In this document: piece after piece, positions 28,518 through 37,289 of the stretch
Layout: every line of letters begins with the position of its first letter
Position numbering within the stretch: the stretch's first letter is position 1
Translations under genes and position numbers: made by a program
Source of the DNA: a sulfur-oxidizing endosymbiont of Gigantopelta aegis
GTDB lineage: Bacteria; Pseudomonadota; Gammaproteobacteria; GRL18
Length of the DNA: 64,000 nt
Assembly (NCBI RefSeq): GCF_016097415.1
Contig: NZ_JAEHGE010000002.1
Location: 124,001 to 188,000 of the forward strand
Direction of reading: 5' to 3'
Notes under the pieces: generated by a model
Told to the model about the DNA's origin: nothing
The model's database searches: none
Seen by the model: only the letters and a program-made list of their open reading frames with translations

Positions 28518-30635
28518 TTATTTCTTAACGATTTTATCCTGTTTTAACTGAATAAAATCTAACAGAATATGTGCCGACTCCATTAGGAAGGTATGGCTGT
28601 CACTGTCTTTTTTATCTTTTTCTTTCTCATCATCATGATCTTCATTCAGACCAAGCACATCATCCTTTTCATCCAGTTCTTTAATGTCTTTAAAGGGCTT
28701 CTCACCTTTGGCAATGCGGCGCTTGTTTTCAATGTCCAATTGTTCCTGACGGGATTCCTGATATTCTTTTTGTCTAATTTTATAGTTTAGAGAAAGCGTT
28801 TTTTGATCTTTTTTCTTGTCAATACGTGCAACGGTCTCTTCAATGTAACGGAAGTCAGGATCACTTTTTGTTCGTTGTAGATGTTTTGCTTTGAGTGCAG
28901 GAAAGAGTTTGTTTAATTCAGGATAATGCTGGTAGTCGGCATTTTTGACTTGATCCCATGGTAAAGCTTCAGGTAGGGAGCTTTCTCCGATGTCATCTTT
29001 GTCATATAAGGCCGGAAAAAGTATATCGGGAATGACGCCCAAGTTTTGTGTGCTATCACCGGAAATACGGTAAAACTTCGCATGGGTAAGTTTGATTTGA
29101 CCTTGCTCTAATTGCTGTAAGGCCTGCACAGTGCCTTTACCAAAGGTTTGATTGCCAATGATCAGCCCGCGTTTATAGTCCTGAATCGCACCAGCGAAAA
29201 TCTCTGAAGCAGAGGCACTTAAACGATTAACTAAAACCGCCAATGGGCCATTGTAGATAATTTCATCACTATCATCGTTTAATTGTGCAATACGGCCATC
29301 GGCAGATTTAACTTGCACTGTGGGACCGGATTTAATGAATAACCCGACCAAAGAGTTTACTTCTTGTAGTGAACCCCCGCCATTGTTACGCAGGTCGATG
29401 ATCAGACCATCGATATTGTCTTTTTGTAATTCTTTAATGAGTTTTTTGACATCACGGGTGGTACTTTTGTAATTGGGATCACCGGCCTGAGCAGCTTTAA
29501 AATCAATGTAAAAAGCGGGAATTTCAATGATACCTACTTTTTGCTTAATGCTATTATTGCTGATCTCAATGATTTCTTTTTTCGCCGCCTGTTCTTCTAG
29601 TTTGACCGTGTTGCGGACAATTTGAATGGTTTTGGTTTTATGTTCATCTTTGTCTTTTTGCGGAATCAGTTCTAAGCGTACCGTCGTGCCTTTTTTGCCA
29701 CGGATCAGTTGTACCACGTCATCTAAACGCCAACCAATCACATCAACGACTTCGCCATCAACACCCTGGCCAACACCGACAATGCGATCACCAGCTTTGA
29801 GTTGTCCGGCTTTTTCTGCAGGCCCTGCAGGTACTAAGCGTTTGACTTTGGTATAGCCATCTTCTGACTGTAGCATGGCACCGATACCTTCCAAAGAAAG
29901 ACTCATTTGGATATCAAAGTTTTCGGACACGCGAGGAGAAAAATACTGAGTATGGGGATCATAGGATTCAGCGAGAGCATTCATGTAGATTCTGAAGGCA
30001 TCTTCATTATTGGTTTGTTTGATGCGATTGAGTTGATTTTTATAGCGTTTGGTCAGTAATTCCTGAATTTCTTTATCATCTTTGCCCGCCAGTTTAAAAC
30101 TGATGATGACATTTTTTAATTGTTGCTTGGTGAGTTTGTTTTGCGCTTCCTTATTAGCAGGCCAAGGCAGTTTGTCTCGCTCGATCTCCAGTGTTTCATC
30201 CGTTGTGAAATCCAGCTCGTCGAAGTGGTTTTCCAGTAGGTTAAGGGTGTAAACTAAGCGTTCTGCATGACGTTTCTGATAAAGGTTAAAGGCTGTAAAA
30301 GCATTTTTGAGTTCACCACGACGAAAGTTGTTGTCGATAAGATAACGAAACTTCTCGAAGCGTTTGATATCTTCAGCGAGAAAAAAAGTGTGATTGGGAT
30401 CCAGTGACTTGATAAAGGCATCAAACACTTTAGATGATAACTTGTCATCCAATACCATTTGACGATAATGTTGGTACTGAAGTTGTTTGGCAATGACAAA
30501 GCTGAGTTTAGCATGCTCTTTGTCCGGTACAACGGGATGGATATATTCTTCAGTCTGATAAACTTTAGCAACAGAAAATAAGGGCGTGCTGAGAAAAATC
30601 GTGGCAATGGCAATGGATAAAAATTTATTGAGCAT
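28518..30635 (-). CDS. prc: Carboxy-terminal processing protease Prc (Tsp)
   Basis: Prc is a periplasmic PDZ serine protease that trims or degrades proteins from their C-terminus, including penicillin-binding proteins and lipoproteins. A signal peptide ends near residue 23 (FSVAKA). The N-terminal helical domain is followed by a PDZ domain (LEGIGAMLQSEDGYTKVKRLVPAGPAEKAG). The S41 catalytic core carries the nucleophile in RLSASASEIFAGAIQDY and the lysine in GNQTFGKGTVQ. The C-terminus is charged. Length 705 is near the E. coli 682. It is monocistronic by spacing. Confidence 0.95.
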   Translation of the reverse strand: MLNKFLSIAIATIFLSTPLFSVAKVYQTEEYIHPVVPDKEHAKLSFVIAKQLQYQHYRQMVLDDKLSSKVFDAFIKSLDPNHTFFLAEDIKRFEKFRYLIDNNFRRGELKNAFTAFNLYQKRHAERLVYTLNLLENHFDELDFTTDETLEIERDKLPWPANKEAQNKLTKQQLKNVIISFKLAGKDDKEIQELLTKRYKNQLNRIKQTNNEDAFRIYMNALAESYDPHTQYFSPRVSENFDIQMSLSLEGIGAMLQSEDGYTKVKRLVPAGPAEKAGQLKAGDRIVGVGQGVDGEVVDVIGWRLDDVVQLIRGKKGTTVRLELIPQKDKDEHKTKTIQIVRNTVKLEEQAAKKEIIEISNNSIKQKVGIIEIPAFYIDFKAAQAGDPNYKSTTRDVKKLIKELQKDNIDGLIIDLRNNGGGSLQEVNSLVGLFIKSGPTVQVKSADGRIAQLNDDSDEIIYNGPLAVLVNRLSASASEIFAGAIQDYKRGLIIGNQTFGKGTVQALQQLEQGQIKLTHAKFYRISGDSTQNLGVIPDILFPALYDKDDIGESSLPEALPWDQVKNADYQHYPELNKLFPALKAKHLQRTKSDPDFRYIEETVARIDKKKDQKTLSLNYKIRQKEYQESRQEQLDIENKRRIAKGEKPFKDIKELDEKDDVLGLNEDHDDEKEKDKKDSDSHTFLMESAHILLDFIQLKQDKIVKK

Positions 30636-31416: not shown

Positions 31417-31576
31417 CAGTTGAACCTACTGCGACCGCCTTATGCACTGAATCTTAAGGATTTTCCAGAACATTTTGACTTCACCCGTAGGGTGACTACG
31501 AATAAAGCCAAAATAACCTGTAAAACCCTTAATCTTTAGCACCTAAGTCGCTCTCGCTACGATTCAACTGATTATT
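31417..31576. repeat. Non-coding element bounded by imperfect inverted repeats
   Basis: The left end ATCAGTTGAACCTACTGCGAC is mirrored at the right by GTCGC-TCTCGC-TACGATTCAACTGAT, about 155 bp apart. Inside is a small palindrome CACCCGTAGGGTG. It fills the gap between greB and the convergent 109-residue gene. It looks like a miniature element or degenerate repeat; no other copy is visible in this window. Confidence 0.5.
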
Positions 31577-31901
31577 TTAGGTTAAAGTCAGCTTCAGCGG
31601 TGGATTTGTCGATTGAAACGAGCAGCTCGCAATAAGTGTTTTCACTCATGGGATCATCATCACAATTGCATCCGGCGATGATTTCATTGAAGAAGATGCC
31701 GACTTTGATTTGAATGTGAGTGTTGTTTTCAGATGCCGAATTGATTAATGCGGCGATATTGGATGCATCGACTTTGCCCCCTTGAGTGGTTGCATGGTGT
31801 AGGGGTAAAGCGTTATCAGAAAGAGTCTGAAGTTCTTCTTTTAAGGTGCTTTTAAATGTCTCACTCCCCCAACTTTGCAAGGATTTAAGTAGTTGGGGCA
31901 T
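31572..31901 (-). CDS. Conserved hypothetical protein with CNCDDDP motif
   Basis: The 109-residue soluble protein is probably cytoplasmic. The most distinctive part is KVGIFFNEIIAGCNCDDDPMSENTYCELLVSIDKSTAEADF. The cysteine pair two residues apart followed by three aspartates, with another cysteine 12 positions later, suggests a metal site, but this is inference. It lies 3 bp after the DUF971-MoaD gene and is last in a minus-strand run that begins at mgtE. I do not know its function. Confidence 0.8.
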   Translation of the reverse strand: MPQLLKSLQSWGSETFKSTLKEELQTLSDNALPLHHATTQGGKVDASNIAALINSASENNTHIQIKVGIFFNEIIAGCNCDDDPMSENTYCELLVSIDKSTAEADFNLK

Positions 31902-31904
31902 GGC

Positions 31905-32522
31905 TTATTGAGCCTTGGGGATCAGCGCTATTTCATCACCGTGTTCTAATACGGTAAAGAGTTCAGCAAATTCTTTGTTGACGGTAAATTGCACGCTATC
32001 ATTTTTAAAGGCGCGTTCCCAGCGCATTCCACGCTTACTTAAAAATGCCAGTAAATCTTCAATGGTTTTAACCTTTTCTGGTAATTCCAGCTCTTCTTCT
32101 TCTTTGGTAAACGCAATGAGTTTATCCATAAAATAAAGTATTTTTATGATGGCGGGGCCGTTATGCGTTTTGTCTGCTTCCCCACGATTTAAATGATATT
32201 TTTCTAGGGTTGCAAGGTAGTTTGCCCAATTTTTTTCATAATTCTCACCCAGCTCATAGAGTGTTTCCCATGAATAAATACCCTGATCATAGCCATCATC
32301 AAAAAACAGTCTTAGTGCATAACTTCCCTGTGCTTCAATGGAGTCAATATTGACATTGATTTTGCCAGCAACAGGTTCGTTAACGCTCTTTATTTCTGCT
32401 GATTTACCATGAGTTCTCAGGTATTCACAACTCAGCATATAATTTTCACCGGTATCAAAGCTGATTTCAAGTAAGCGTGATTTTTTGTGTAGATTAATTG
32501 CGATGGGATTATGTTCGGTCAT
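31905..32522 (-). CDS. DUF971 domain fused to MoaD-like ubiquitin fold
   Basis: There are two domains in 205 residues. Residues 5-100 are a DUF971/gamma-butyrobetaine hydroxylase N-terminal-like domain (SRLLEISFDTGENYMLSCEYLRTHGKSAE... GSYALRLFFDDGYDQGIYSWETLYEL), a module also found next to Mrp/ApbC-type Fe-S carriers. Residues 125-205 align along their length with MoaD (IKILYFMDKLIAFTK... VKTIEDLLAFLSKRGMRWERAF... TVNKEFAELFTVLEHGDEIALIPKAQ). The chain ends PKAQ rather than the Gly-Gly needed for thiocarboxylation, so it cannot be an ordinary molybdopterin synthase sulfur carrier. It is close behind the anti-sigma gene. Function unknown. Confidence 0.75.
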   Translation of the reverse strand: MTEHNPIAINLHKKSRLLEISFDTGENYMLSCEYLRTHGKSAEIKSVNEPVAGKINVNIDSIEAQGSYALRLFFDDGYDQGIYSWETLYELGENYEKNWANYLATLEKYHLNRGEADKTHNGPAIIKILYFMDKLIAFTKEEEELELPEKVKTIEDLLAFLSKRGMRWERAFKNDSVQFTVNKEFAELFTVLEHGDEIALIPKAQ

Positions 32523-32556
32523 ATTTTTAACTTTGAGATTTATGTCATTGATATCA

Positions 32557-33345
32557 TCAATGTGGGGATAAGTGTTGCAAAATTACAGGGTCAATGGGGT
32601 AATTAGGATATTTTTTTTGTAATTGTTGCAATGCATGTCGGGCATTATTGAGTTGACCATTATTGATAAATTGTTTTATTTCCACCAGTTTTTGTTCCGC
32701 TTCGTCGGTATTGTGCTGATTTTTGTGGGTGAGTATTTCTTGCTCAGGAATAATGATATTTTGAATCGTTGCCTCACTAAGAGCCGGTGCGTTGTTGAAT
32801 TGAACTCTTTGCTGATATTTCATTGCAGCACTAGGTAAAGCACTTGGTGTAGCTTGCATTTTTGGCATTGGATTAGAGTCAAAGCGCAATTTACGTGTGT
32901 CTATGCTGGATTTTTCCACTTTTGCTTTGGGCTTTGATTTCTTTTTGCGTGCCAAAGAGGGCATGCTATCCATCTCTGTCATATCAGTTGTCATATCAGC
33001 TGTTATATTTGATGTAGAAACTGCCTCCATTGCTGCTTGAGGGAGGATTGCTTCTTCCGTTAGTTGTTGTTCTGCTTGCCAGGTATTGACTGCGAGCAGG
33101 CCGACTAAAGAAAATAATGCGATAGAGGCTGCCCATGAGCTTGGCTGAGTCCACCACGACTTATTGCTTGTGTTGACAGCATCTTTGGCAGCAGAGAGGA
33201 TGTTTTTATCCAGTTCACTTGATGGTTTTTGACTATCACTGCTTTGATAAAGCTCAGACAGGTTGGAGTTTCCCTCTAAGTATTGGGAAAAAAATACCTC
33301 ATCTGTTGGTGTGGCGGTGGTGGATTTATCAAATGTTTTTTTCAT
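32557..33345 (-). CDS. Probable anti-sigma factor, single-pass membrane protein
   Basis: The 262-residue protein overlaps the ECF sigma gene by 4 nt, the usual arrangement for a sigma/anti-sigma pair. The N-terminal cytoplasmic part is short (about 65 residues, with YLEGNSNLSELYQSSDSQ and no HxxxCxxC zinc motif). One membrane segment lies at about residues 70-88 (SSWAASIALFSLVGLLAVNTW). The periplasmic part is rich in Lys, Ala and Ser and ends in a helical EQKLVEIKQFINNGQLNNARHALQQL segment. The assignment rests on position and topology, not on a recognised domain. Confidence 0.65.
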   Translation of the reverse strand: MKKTFDKSTTATPTDEVFFSQYLEGNSNLSELYQSSDSQKPSSELDKNILSAAKDAVNTSNKSWWTQPSSWAASIALFSLVGLLAVNTWQAEQQLTEEAILPQAAMEAVSTSNITADMTTDMTEMDSMPSLARKKKSKPKAKVEKSSIDTRKLRFDSNPMPKMQATPSALPSAAMKYQQRVQFNNAPALSEATIQNIIIPEQEILTHKNQHNTDEAEQKLVEIKQFINNGQLNNARHALQQLQKKYPNYPIDPVILQHLSPH

Positions 33346-34037
33346 AAGGTCTTATTGATCACTGTTTGTTTTTGTATATCCGTGATACTGGGATATAAGT
33401 GCTGACGTAATTTCTTGATCGCATAGCGTAAACGACTTTTGACACTCTCATAGGAACTATCGGTTACTTGAGCGATGTCTGCTAATGATAAGCCGTTTTT
33501 TTCATGTAATAAAAATACTTCTCTTTGCTCATGGGGCAAGTCATCGATTCCTTGGAGTAGTCGCTGTTGCAACTGCTCTGTTTGCAATGTGTTGTCAGGT
33601 GTTTCGACGCTTGTTCCTGATTTTTCTATGGCCTTGTCTAATTCGGCTTCAGCATTTTCGGTGTCTGCTAATGAGCGAACCAGATGTAATGCCTGGTGTT
33701 TACTTTGGCGATAATGATCGAGCAAACGATTGCGAGCAATGGTGTAGAGCCAGGTTTTAAAGGATGCATCCTGTTTGAAACGTGAACGGGATTTGATCAG
33801 GTTTAGCCATACATCTTGATGCAATTCATCGGCGCTACTGGTCGATTGTGTCTGACGAAATAAATAATGATAGATAGCATTTTTGTAGCGCAGATAAAGT
33901 ATCTCGAATGCGGCTACATTACCTTGCTGGTAGGCGTGAATTAACTGCTCATCCGTTTGTTCGTCTGTCACCTGATCATTTTTCCATGTGTTAATTATAG
34001 ACGTAGATGATGCTAAAAAGGGTTTTTTATTTTGCAC
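33342..34037 (-). CDS. ECF-type RNA polymerase sigma factor
   Basis: The 231-residue sigma-70 family protein has region 2 (AFEILYLRYKNAIYHYLFRQTQSTSSADELHQDVWLNLI... FKTWLYTIARNRLLDHYR) and region 4 (LQGIDDLPHEQREVFLLHEKNGLSLADIAQVTDSSYESVKSRLRYAIKKLRQ). Region 3 is missing, as in ECF sigma factors. It overlaps its upstream neighbour by 11 nt and its probable anti-sigma factor by 4 nt. The signal it responds to is unknown; the operon context points to the envelope or a secreted BNR protein. Confidence 0.92.
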   Translation of the reverse strand: MQNKKPFLASSTSIINTWKNDQVTDEQTDEQLIHAYQQGNVAAFEILYLRYKNAIYHYLFRQTQSTSSADELHQDVWLNLIKSRSRFKQDASFKTWLYTIARNRLLDHYRQSKHQALHLVRSLADTENAEAELDKAIEKSGTSVETPDNTLQTEQLQQRLLQGIDDLPHEQREVFLLHEKNGLSLADIAQVTDSSYESVKSRLRYAIKKLRQHLYPSITDIQKQTVINKTL

Positions 34038-34665
34038 TGTATTTGTTTACAGTCAGTCTACCTAAAGACAGGAGGGCATAAATAAACAGGCCGGGATCAA
34101 ATAAATAATCCCATAAATTATGGCTTTCCAATACGCCTAATTGATAGGCTAGGGTGGCTGAGGTGAGGCAAACTAATAATAGCAGGTTGTTTTTAATGAG
34201 TGCCAGCCACATGAGCATGGTTAGAACAATAATAAATAAAGTGGGAATTAAGCGACCATGGTCGGTATTTATGAATCCCCAAGCATAGGGATCAATTGTG
34301 CCATAGCCCAAGGCGGTGGGGTAAAAAAAGAGACCGCAGAGTACGATGATGCTATAAAGTAGTGGTGTCGAGGATTGGCTTTTCTCAGTGTTCGTTGCAG
34401 TGCTGAAATAATAGCTTAATAAAATCAGCGATGTGATACTGAGAGCATTAATAAGTCCACGCACGTAGAGGTTGATACTATCACCTGAAATGGGCATAAA
34501 TGAAATGACAAATAATAGACTGGCAAAAAAATAACTGCTCTGATGACTGACTTTAACAAGGAGTAATAGGCGTAATAAGATTGCGGCTAAAAGCAGGGAG
34601 ATACCACTAAGCCCAATAATACTGCTTAAGGGCAGCATTTGAAAATCGAAAATGGGAAAATTCAT
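34027..34665 (-). CDS. Polytopic membrane protein of unknown function
   Basis: The 212-residue protein has about six or seven hydrophobic segments, separated by short loops (first SSIIGLSGISLLLAAILLRLLLLV, last LFDPGLFIYALLSLGRL). No motif lets me name a family. Its start overlaps the stop of the sialidase-like gene by 4 nt, and its end overlaps the sigma gene by 11 nt. It is therefore translationally coupled to both, and may be a membrane partner of the BNR protein or a sensor for the sigma system. Confidence 0.75.
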   Translation of the reverse strand: MNFPIFDFQMLPLSSIIGLSGISLLLAAILLRLLLLVKVSHQSSYFFASLLFVISFMPISGDSINLYVRGLINALSITSLILLSYYFSTATNTEKSQSSTPLLYSIIVLCGLFFYPTALGYGTIDPYAWGFINTDHGRLIPTLFIIVLTMLMWLALIKNNLLLLVCLTSATLAYQLGVLESHNLWDYLFDPGLFIYALLSLGRLTVNKYSAK

Positions 34666-35909
34666 TGTGATTTCCCTGCTGTTTTAGAATTGTTACTGAG
34701 TAGCCAGGACTTATTAAACACTGCATGTTTTATGTGACTTTTGTGCCAAGTATACAAGAGGTGAATGTTGCCATTTTGTGTTTGTAACAGCCAGGGGTAA
34801 GAAAACTGCTGGCTCTTATCGGGAGGAACTAAGACATTTTTCTCGACTACTTGTGCCAATTGCCATGTTTCTCCTGCATCTTGGGAGATCGCGAGGGAAA
34901 GATCATCGCGCTCCTGAGGATCATTATTATAAGCCAATAATAAATCATGATTATCGTTCAGAGTCAGACCAATAATTCCCGCACCGGGGTTGGCTAGTGT
35001 GCTTTTTTTTACGGCTGACCAACTTTGCCCAGCATCGCTGCTGTGCTGAATGAGTATACGATTAGGAGGGGGGCCTTGATAACGCATCATAGCAATGGCA
35101 TTTTTTTCTGAGGTAGGGAAAATAATGGGTTGTAATGAGGTTTGTCCCCAGGACAAACGGGTTTTATGAATGACTTCACCCTGGCTGTTGAGCTTTAATA
35201 ATTCGCCAAATTTCCCTAATAACTCATGATAAACCGGTAGTCCGATACTGCCATCAGCATAATGAATGGCGCTGCCTTTGATGAGGGTACTGAGGTTCAA
35301 AAAAGGGGAGGTGATTAGTCGTTTAGGGCTTGACCAGGTATGCCCTTCGTCATGTGATTGGGTTAAATTAATGGCACTACCAGCCCAGCCACCCACGGAG
35401 ACACTGACATAAAATAGCCAGATGCTATTATCCGGCCCGCGAGTGACCACGGGATTACCTAATTTACGAATATAACGGGAGGTACCATTACGGGTGAATA
35501 GACGGGTAATGAGCTCCTTGTCTTGTCCCCATTGCTGGGTACTATTATCCCAGATGTTTTGATAAATGCTGACATCCTGATGGCCTTCCCGTGTGCCACC
35601 ATACCAAAAGGCCATCACATTGTTGTTCGCCAGTTCTATGGCTGTGGGACTATGGACTTCCAGGGTTGACTCATGGGAGGTAAAACTACTATGAAAAAAG
35701 GCCTTATTTTTAGCTGACTTGTCTTTAGCTGACTTATTGTTATCCAAGCCAGTCTTGTTTGAGTTATCACTTAAAGGACTTAGTTGAAACTCAACTTTGA
35801 CGGCAGGATTAAAAAGTGAGCCAGTGATGGGCAATAGAGAAATCAAGCCCAGAATAAACACGAGTTTATGACTTAAATTAGTCTTTGTGGCATGAGTTGA
35901 TGAAGTCAT
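34662..35909 (-). CDS. BNR/Asp-box protein of the sialidase superfamily, exported
   Basis: This is a 415-residue beta-propeller protein. An N-terminal hydrophobic segment (about residues 13-29) would export or anchor it. Three Asp boxes are visible: SHDEGHTWSSPK, SSDAGQSWSAVK and SQDAGETWQLAQ. An arginine-containing AFWYGGTREGHQDVSI lies near the N-terminus. The fold belongs to the Sialidase_2/BNR group, but sialidase activity is not shown; many members act on other glycans or none. It lies 6 bp after mgtE and is coupled to the membrane protein gene, heading a sigma/anti-sigma unit. Confidence 0.8.
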   Translation of the reverse strand: MTSSTHATKTNLSHKLVFILGLISLLPITGSLFNPAVKVEFQLSPLSDNSNKTGLDNNKSAKDKSAKNKAFFHSSFTSHESTLEVHSPTAIELANNNVMAFWYGGTREGHQDVSIYQNIWDNSTQQWGQDKELITRLFTRNGTSRYIRKLGNPVVTRGPDNSIWLFYVSVSVGGWAGSAINLTQSHDEGHTWSSPKRLITSPFLNLSTLIKGSAIHYADGSIGLPVYHELLGKFGELLKLNSQGEVIHKTRLSWGQTSLQPIIFPTSEKNAIAMMRYQGPPPNRILIQHSSDAGQSWSAVKKSTLANPGAGIIGLTLNDNHDLLLAYNNDPQERDDLSLAISQDAGETWQLAQVVEKNVLVPPDKSQQFSYPWLLQTQNGNIHLLYTWHKSHIKHAVFNKSWLLSNNSKTAGKSQ

Positions 35910-35915
35910 ATTGTT

Positions 35916-37289
35916 TTAAACAAGCATAATGCTGGCAAGACCAAGAAAGGCAAAAAAGCCGACGACATCGGTGACGGTGGTGAGAAAAACACCGCCTGCT
36001 AAGGCTGGATCTGCACCGGCTTTATCGAGTAATAAGGGAATAACAACACCGGAAAAAGCCGCGACCACTAGGTTGATTACTACTGCGAAACCGATAACGA
36101 TAGCCAGTGTTTGACTGGAAAACCAGAAACCGGAAATAATGGCCAAAACTAATGCCCAGAGTATGCCATTGATAAGACTGACGGATAATTCTTTGATCAT
36201 CAGACTTTGATAATTTTTGCTACTGAGTTGCCCTAAGGCCATGCCACGTATCACCAATGTGAGTGTTTGACTGCCTGCGACACCGCCCATGCTGGCGACG
36301 ATAGGCATTAATACCGCTAAGGCAACGACTTTTTCTATGGTAACTTGAAACATGCCAATAACGCTGGATGCGAGCAAGGCGGTTAATAAATTCACCCCCA
36401 ACCAAAGTGCGCGGCGCTTGCTGCTGCTGAATACCGGCGCGAACATATCGTCTTCTTCACTTAAGCCTGCCTGACTCATAAAAGTGTGCTCACCTTCATC
36501 ACGGATGACATCAACAATATCATCAATGGTAATGCGTCCCAGCAGATAGCCTAGGTCATCGACAACGGGCGCAGTGATTAAGTCACGACGTTCAAATAAG
36601 GCGGCGACTTCTGTTTGCTCGGTACTGGCATTAATGCCGCGTAGCTTAGTATTCATGACACTGGCAACAGATAATTCGGGATCACTGGTTAATAAGTCGG
36701 ATAGGTATAAAACGCCCTGATAAAATCCGGCCTTATTGACCACGATAAGATTATCAGTGGTGTCGGGTATTTGGCCTAAAAAACGCAGATAGCGCATCAC
36801 GGTTTCAAGGCTAATATCTGTGCGGATTGAAATAGTATCGGTGTTCATTAAGCCACCGGCACTGTCTTCAGCATAGGATAGTACGGATTCTAAACGTTCC
36901 CTATGTTGGGTTTCCATAGATTGCAAAAGTACCCGACTGACCACATCAGGCATGTCGGGTAATAAGTCGGCCATGTCATCGTGATCCATGGTACGGGTGG
37001 TCACAACCAGTTCATTGGTTGGCATGGATTCGATGAATTGTAGACGGATATAGTCGTTCAGATGGGTGAGGGTTTCACCCTTAAGTTCGATGGCAACTAG
37101 TGCCCAGATGCGGGCGCGTTGTTCTTCATCAGGTAGTGATTCGATTAAAAAGGCAATTTCTGCAGGGTGTAAAGAGTTGACCAGTGTCTGTACACTGGAT
37201 TCCTGGCCTTTATCAATCGCAACATAGACAGGGGCAAGTTGTTCTTGCAGTTGTTGCTCTTGTAATTGTTGTTCCTGGGCCAGTGGCAT
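35916..37289 (-). CDS. mgtE: Magnesium transporter MgtE
   Basis: MgtE is a Mg2+ channel gated by cytoplasmic Mg2+. The 457 residues show the N domain (helical repeat, residues about 20-135), two CBS domains (about 140-260, beginning DSAGGLMNTDTISIRTD and VMNTKLRG), a plug helix, and five membrane segments. PIVASMGGVAGSQTLTLVIRGMA and DPALAGGVFLTTVTDVVGFFAFLGLA contain the family's pore residues. The glutamine-rich N-terminus (QEQQLQEQQLQEQ) is locally repetitive. It may be first in the operon with the BNR/sigma genes (6-bp gap). Confidence 0.93.
   Translation of the reverse strand: MPLAQEQQLQEQQLQEQLAPVYVAIDKGQESSVQTLVNSLHPAEIAFLIESLPDEEQRARIWALVAIELKGETLTHLNDYIRLQFIESMPTNELVVTTRTMDHDDMADLLPDMPDVVSRVLLQSMETQHRERLESVLSYAEDSAGGLMNTDTISIRTDISLETVMRYLRFLGQIPDTTDNLIVVNKAGFYQGVLYLSDLLTSDPELSVASVMNTKLRGINASTEQTEVAALFERRDLITAPVVDDLGYLLGRITIDDIVDVIRDEGEHTFMSQAGLSEEDDMFAPVFSSSKRRALWLGVNLLTALLASSVIGMFQVTIEKVVALAVLMPIVASMGGVAGSQTLTLVIRGMALGQLSSKNYQSLMIKELSVSLINGILWALVLAIISGFWFSSQTLAIVIGFAVVINLVVAAFSGVVIPLLLDKAGADPALAGGVFLTTVTDVVGFFAFLGLASIMLV

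Follow-up and report, generated by a model that had tools for sequence, protein, structure and literature searches.

A row of seven minus-strand genes in a sulfur-oxidizing endosymbiont of Gigantopelta aegis (Gammaproteobacteria) is not the single unit that it had been taken for; two separable modules abut there. The genes occupy positions 31572-37289 of the stretch of 64,000 nt analyzed here (hereafter, the window; contig NZ_JAEHGE010000002.1, positions 124,001 to 188,000). A preliminary description had seen in them a compact operon in which a sialidase-superfamily propeller (the BNR protein) and a polytopic membrane protein, translationally coupled to an extracytoplasmic function (ECF) sigma/anti-sigma pair, might form a surface-sensing module controlling an unknown regulon. 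Sequence comparison among relatives makes it likely, in our view, that the sigma pair is instead an autoregulated ECF switch with a tandem pair of DUF4139 genes as its output, lying beside a separate unit composed of the BNR and membrane proteins.

RESULTS

All seven open reading frames (ORFs) were confirmed with their coordinates and families, as were the intergenic gaps of 6, 34, and 3 nt and two 4-nt overlaps. The remaining distance, an 11-nt overlap between the membrane and sigma genes, rests on a GTG at 34037, and we read it as a start-codon artefact. The sigma ORFs of relatives begin at about window residue 20 to 26, and in several of them an in-frame stop closes the stretch upstream of sigma (stops inside the match). 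At the corresponding place, the window carries a GTG at 33971; a start there opens a gap of 55 nt between the two genes, and this gap holds a conserved promoter-like motif. Either sigma starts at this likely GTG, which gives a gene at 33342-33971 and makes the longer ORF to 34037 doubtful, or else there is a sequence difference at 33987-33971; an ATG at 33987, the closest one to the promoter, stands beside a run of five A and is not in the reading frame of sigma. With a start at GTG 33971 and a gap of 55 nt, there is no translational coupling across the membrane/sigma border, contrary to what had been assumed.

The motif, AACCC-N16-CGTCTATAAT at window positions 34024-33998, was recognized by reading upstream regions side by side. 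It is a predicted ECF promoter on the minus strand (33998-34024), with AACCC as the -35 element, a spacer of 16 nt, and CGTCTA as the -10 element, and it is conserved ahead of sigma in relatives. Our search for relatives covered 57 genomes, including that of the endosymbiont itself (G000); its family, f1, was represented by 24 genomes amounting to 83.5 Mb. The motif also stands ahead of sigma in five genomes in which no membrane gene precedes it (G005, G013, G019, G022, and G023), so its conservation cannot be put down to coding constraint on the membrane gene. It is likewise conserved at sigma in G017 and G022, whose sigma genes are fragments at contig edges.

An exact search for the core in 11 genomes chosen for having sigma returned 22 sites. 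Sigma was preceded by a site in 11/11 genomes, and in 7/11 a site lay 34 to 89 nt before the same pair of DUF4139 genes; 4 of the 22 fell inside long ORFs. The extended motif TAACCCNTTTN12CGTCTATA, searched in the 24 f1 genomes, gave 40 sites with up to two mismatches. Twenty-eight of these had at most one mismatch, where base composition predicts about 0.9. Sigma and DUF4139 account for 13 each; of the other two, one precedes the YfbK gene that lies upstream of sigma in G018, and one lies behind a membrane gene in G002, whose contig ends 85 nt farther on without a recognizable sigma. A reversed-pattern control on 441,531 bases of fetched flanks found no site with zero or one mismatch. Within the window, a zero-mismatch motif stands only ahead of sigma, and there is no such site before mgtE or BNR. 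The search for promoters resembling the one ahead of the operon, which the preliminary description had advised, found no good motif at the head of the row and matching sites at sigma and the DUF4139 pair.

Sites with exactly two mismatches numbered 12, against 21 expected by composition, and were rejected as members of a regulon: none of the 10 that we inspected lay at sigma or DUF4139. One near-identical site of this class recurs in G005, G019, and G021 and lies antisense inside an rmlA-like gene in G005; another, in G000 (contig C2, position 123881), is 235 nt before a transporter-like ORF. Upstream regions of sigma genes from other families mostly lacked AACCC-N16-CGTC, and the few cases of AACCC-N15-17-CGTT were too weak to support a claim.

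In the endosymbiont genome, the tandem DUF4139 pair lies on contig C1 at 3344828-3347490, preceded by the shared motif. The two proteins match PF13598 with 34.3 and 34.2 bits (cutoff, 31.8) and the MuiA family TIGR02231 with 49.8 and 28.4 bits, below its cutoff of 112.6. The first DUF4139 gene is present in 19 of the 24 f1 genomes. Its upstream site occurs in 13 of the 14 genomes with this type of sigma (G000, G004, G005, G008, G009, G013, G014, G015, G017, G019, G021, G022, and G023) and in one of the five without it (Fisher P = 0.006). Here, sigma was scored as present in G009 from its anti-sigma only and in G017 and G022 from fragments of sigma that lie at contig edges; a site was scored as present with at most one mismatch or, in G015, with a 17-nt spacer (this DUF4139 site is not among the 28). 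Neither the sigma type nor the site is found in G001, G007, G010, and G011. Two of these genomes are partial (G001, 76% complete; G011, 64%), and G007, with 100% completeness, keeps both DUF4139 genes and lacks the motif and any match to sigma or anti-sigma. The regulon that the preliminary description had left undefined can be given a small predicted content through the motif; its control by a propeller/membrane sensing module was not supported.

Several observations weigh against a link between sigma and the DUF4139 genes. The reversed pattern of the exact core matched 15 times, compared with 22 for the real core. For the extended motif with up to two mismatches, a reversed control that reports no mismatch classes gave 26 against 29 and 21 against 11 (47 against 40 in total); since the control is as frequent at this stringency, only the class with zero or one mismatch, together with its placement, is informative. 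G003 has sigma with its promoter and no motif in the 243 nt available before DUF4139, and G020 (700 contigs) has the DUF4139 site and no sigma or anti-sigma match. G010 carries a YfbK-linked sigma without the motif, and its DUF4139 site is degenerate (AACCC-N17-CGTCTTCC); counting this genome as sigma-bearing raises the Fisher P value to 0.037, and the relatedness of the genomes makes both P values (0.006 and 0.037) too low. The DUF4139 genes of eight genomes outside f1 (families f12, f33, f69, f111, and f125) lack the motif, which confines the demonstrated link to f1. Among these families, G034 and G186 (f12) possess a sigma of the same PRK12513 type and still have no motif at DUF4139; the f12 genomes and G010 thus speak against a general sigma-DUF4139 link. 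Finally, transcription continuing from upstream genes may contribute to sigma expression in the 8 of 15 genomes in which the blocks adjoin.

A different ECF sigma might read the motif, its place before this sigma reflecting cross-regulation. Several sigma-like first-look candidates per genome and the DUF4139 site of G020, which has no match to this sigma, are in keeping with such an arrangement. We regard it as unlikely, given that the site is missing or degenerate in four of the five DUF4139-bearing genomes without this sigma type (G001, G007, G010, and G011) and that in G018 the site heads a YfbK gene lying upstream of sigma.

The sigma/anti-sigma pair is real, as had been noticed from the sequence. 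The window sigma carries regions 2 and 4 (Sigma70_r2, PF04542, and Sigma70_r4, PF08281), with no region 3 model listed, which is the composition of an ECF sigma. Its best NCBIfam model is PRK12513 (NF009166), with 204.9 bits, 1.1 bits short of the family cutoff of 206. At an E value of at most 1e-40, this model matches 54 of 369 gammaproteobacterial genomes (28 above the cutoff) and 0 of 14 control genomes, so this kind of sigma is widespread. The predicted anti-sigma (32557-33345, minus strand) overlaps sigma by 4 nt and has an alignable N-terminal domain, one predicted transmembrane segment at about residues 68 to 86, and a long tail whose C terminus has a weak TPR-like motif. It has no significant match among curated anti-sigma families. 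It contains no Cys at all and hence no Cys/His motif of a zinc-binding anti-sigma (ZAS), in line with the preliminary description.

In 27 of 30 fetched PRK12513-type loci, sigma is followed by a protein that, judged by eye, shares this N-terminal motif, and in 26 of them the protein has one transmembrane segment by script; for the other three loci (L098, L099, and L108), the ORF script gave no downstream protein or the wrong frame. A YfbK-type signature adjoins 10 of the 30 sigmas, and also that of G018, and the four proteins scanned were all YfbK_C/vWF_A. In G010, which belongs to the genus of the window, a YfbK-like gene, a related sigma (E = 2e-35; 39 to 42% identity), and an anti-sigma-like gene follow one another at locus L065, where the AACCC motif is missing.

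We searched the fetched flanks of BNR loci with the window proteins. BNR was found in 19 of the 57 genomes, namely, 16 of f1, G026, G056, and, weakly, G054; this last match (8e-4) was set aside, its locus containing no window gene and the genome being missing from the class-wide BNR list. Two blocks emerge from the gene order of the f1 loci. Block 1 reads ptsN-hprK-rapZ-EIIA-HPr-(mgtE)-BNR-membrane; block 2 reads sigma-anti-sigma-GBBH/MoaD-CNCDDDP, followed by greB on the other strand and by prc where the contig allows. The membrane gene directly precedes sigma in 8 of the 15 f1 genomes with a sigma match (G000, G003, G004, G008, G014, G021, G015 at a contig end, and G017 with a sigma fragment at a contig edge) and not in the other 7. 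About 4.3 kb separate BNR-membrane from sigma in G005, and about 10 kb separate the blocks in G022; in G013, where the distance is likewise in the range of about 4 to 10 kb, they lie on opposite strands with prc and greB between them, and in G023 they are on different contigs. In G010, the BNR pair and the different, YfbK-linked sigma are on separate contigs. The preliminary description had named independent scatter in related genomes as the outcome that would tell against its block, and the neighborhoods show that the blocks separate; with adjacency in only 8 of 15 sigma-bearing family genomes, the propeller and membrane protein are most likely no part of the sigma system. The stretch between the blocks in G005 (L034, 9656-13415) encodes a PEP-CTERM-looking protein and a PrsT-type XrtA/PEP-CTERM TPR protein (TIGR02917; 520 bits).

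The BNR_2 protein (34662-35909, minus strand; PF13088, 256 bits) has an N-terminal transmembrane anchor and a sialidase-type propeller, and its constant partner is a polytopic membrane protein (34027-34665, minus strand) without a Pfam match. The membrane gene follows BNR in 14 of the 16 f1 loci, and the other 2 (L045 and L048) end at a contig edge; the stop of one gene and the start of the next overlap by 4 nt in most f1 loci and by 1 nt in L037. The BNR profile matches 17 of the 369 gammaproteobacterial genomes, 3 of f1 and 14 of other families. The membrane gene adjoins BNR in 10 of these 14, one of which (G314) was recognized by one profile only (28 bits), and not in G083, G227, G357 (about 390 nt between BNR and the contig end), or G363. 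Conversely, the membrane profile matches 14 of the 369 genomes, 12 of which have the pair; the weak matches in the other 2 (G098 and G285) were judged to be chance. The two genes are therefore most likely an inseparable pair, an independent two-gene envelope module that adjoins sigma only in part of the lineage.

Glycosyltransferase genes neighbor the pair in 5 of the 10 pair-bearing genomes outside f1: a PMT-type gene lies directly upstream of BNR in G080 and G216; PMT, GT2, and GtrA genes are nearby in G071; and a GT28 gene stands beside the pair in G065 and G311. BNR relatives occur on 3 of 207 matching plasmid records (Gemmatirosa, Klebsiella, and Cupriavidus), with no membrane partner by the membrane profile, and no relatives of the membrane protein were found among the viral contigs searched. 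In G001 (L039, 4331-11581), the BNR gene overlaps the end of a FapA-family gene, and the adjoining ORFs look squalene/phytoene synthase-like by eye. G083, from another family, has a divergent BNR protein without the membrane partner, about 5 kb from an mgtE-like gene (L095, 2-7944).

With one predicted transmembrane segment and a modeled propeller (AlphaFold2; mean predicted local distance difference test score [pLDDT], 77) of the sialidase fold of GH33, the BNR protein probably presents a sugar-binding or glycosidase propeller, tethered to the membrane on the periplasmic side, and has the membrane protein as its dedicated partner. Foldseek matched the model to the sialidases 1eus and 1eur with E values of about 3e-15 (for 1eur, 3.3e-15, with template modeling scores of 0.66/0.75). 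The model of the partner (pLDDT, 80; predicted template modeling score, 0.66) had no fold match (best E value, 3.5), and the protein belongs to no Pfam family and has no relative by sequence in the PDB. Together, the two proteins may bind or trim envelope glycans. That the propeller, with its membrane partner, is a genuine sialidase that acts on sialic acids seems improbable. The fold and the leading Foldseek matches, which are mostly GH33 sialidases, point that way. The BNR alignment has conserved R, E, and Y columns, which may or may not correspond to the GH33 catalytic set of an Arg triad, a Tyr/Glu pair, and an Asp. Sequence similarity to solved sialidases is marginal, however (best E value, 9e-5 by profile and 9e-4 by single sequence), and His86 seems, by eye, to occupy the place of the first active-site Arg. 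Least probable of all is a propeller and membrane protein serving as a surface sensor wired to the sigma pair and an unknown regulon, which adjacency on the same strand in 8 of 15 sigma-bearing f1 genomes favors and which is opposed by the BNR pair without sigma in the fetched flanks of G010 and G001 (the latter lacking any sigma match), by the pair in 10 genomes outside f1 (no sigma or anti-sigma match turned up in any of the 14 BNR loci from other families), by sigma in genomes without a BNR match (G018 and G019), and by the lack of a good motif ahead of mgtE or BNR.

The row has three further genes. The magnesium transporter gene mgtE (35916-37289, minus strand; TIGR00400, 303 bits) is the end of the ptsN-hprK-rapZ-EIIA-HPr neighborhood, outside the sigma module. 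An mgtE match is absent beside BNR in L034, L036, and L010, though the BNR-membrane pair is intact there; in G013 (L035, 5174-5461), mgtE is a 95-amino-acid remnant that joins N- and C-terminal parts and sits between HPr and an intact pair. Downstream of the anti-sigma gene, a gene at 31905-32522 (minus strand) encodes a GBBH-like_N domain (PF06155, 76 bits; we take it to be DUF971) fused to a MoaD/ThiS-fold domain (PF02597, 36 bits), followed at 31572-31901 (minus strand) by a gene for a 109-amino-acid CNCDDDP protein without a Pfam or NCBIfam match. Both are probably cotranscribed with sigma and anti-sigma. The CNCDDDP gene lies downstream of anti-sigma in 6/6 relatives showing both (L033 to L037 and L041), and the GBBH/MoaD match is missing in L041 and partial in L036. 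A C-terminal Gly-Gly is missing from the window GBBH/MoaD protein, which ends in ALIPKAQ, and from 4/4 relatives looked at, making a role as a sulfur carrier unlikely. The gene for the tail-specific protease Prc (28518-30635) is close to the sigma block in the window and likewise in L033, L034, L035, and L037; any role in the sigma switch is a matter of speculation.

DISCUSSION

Our comparisons replace a vague possible sensing operon with a specific, testable predicted circuit of one sigma, one anti-sigma, two promoters, and one output operon, and they single out a conserved propeller/membrane pair, the membrane member of which could be assigned to no known family or fold. We infer the workings of this circuit, from the reading of the motif by sigma and the binding of sigma by anti-sigma to the signal, the export, and every biochemical role. 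The anti-sigma, with its single transmembrane segment, would hold sigma at the inner membrane until an envelope signal releases it. Free sigma would then read AACCC-N16-CGTCTA promoters. Its own promoter would drive sigma, anti-sigma, and probably the two genes behind them, and the second would drive the tandem DUF4139 pair, whose MuiA-like, apparently exported products are the likely output and may act at the cell envelope or surface.

A more far-reaching synthesis holds that this is a two-promoter ECF circuit in a 4.9-Mb genome (its two good sites being its own and that of the DUF4139 pair), that within the family the site moved from the YfbK vWA gene, as in G018, to the DUF4139 pair, as in genera g1 and g3, and that BNR-membrane is an undescribed glycan-acting two-gene module. 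Taken jointly, these propositions are offered tentatively, as a combination more doubtful than the autoregulated switch beside a separate unit. In the papers searched, we found no account of a regulon for this sigma.

The BNR protein shares its fold and BNR_2 domain with GH33 sialidases and BNR_2 proteins. It differs from GH33 sialidases by its membrane anchor, by its constant polytopic partner of no known family, and by a catalytic set that is only putative. Similarly, the sigma pair has the sigma neighborhood and anti-sigma build of PRK12513-type sigma/one-transmembrane anti-sigma pairs, some of which lie behind YfbK vWA genes; unlike in the YfbK-linked pairs, no YfbK gene lies directly ahead of the window sigma, and the second conserved promoter heads the DUF4139 pair.

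The closest described parallel is found in Pseudomonas aeruginosa. According to a review (PMC10418997), SbrI is under the control of SbrR and promotes the transcription of muiA; it also inhibits swarming, biofilm formation is enhanced by it, and both SbrI and MuiA are overexpressed upon osmotic shock, D-cycloserine treatment, or CtpA overexpression. PA2895/PA2896 are named for SbrI-SbrR in PMC8087004. Both systems combine an ECF sigma and its anti-sigma with a known or, in f1, predicted target of the MuiA/DUF4139 type, whereas the predicted targets in the window genome are a tandem pair below the MuiA family cutoff. By analogy, the f1 sigma circuit may work in a manner resembling SbrI-SbrR-MuiA; we draw a likeness and claim no membership in that circuit. 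The prc gene near the sigma block has a possible link, on the same analogy, to the effect of CtpA on SbrI. The predicted DUF4139 output would be akin to a factor that bears on swarming and biofilm formation in Pseudomonas. If SbrI-MuiA is the same circuit, DUF4139 proteins would be dedicated effectors of this type of sigma, giving a handle on families without an assigned function.

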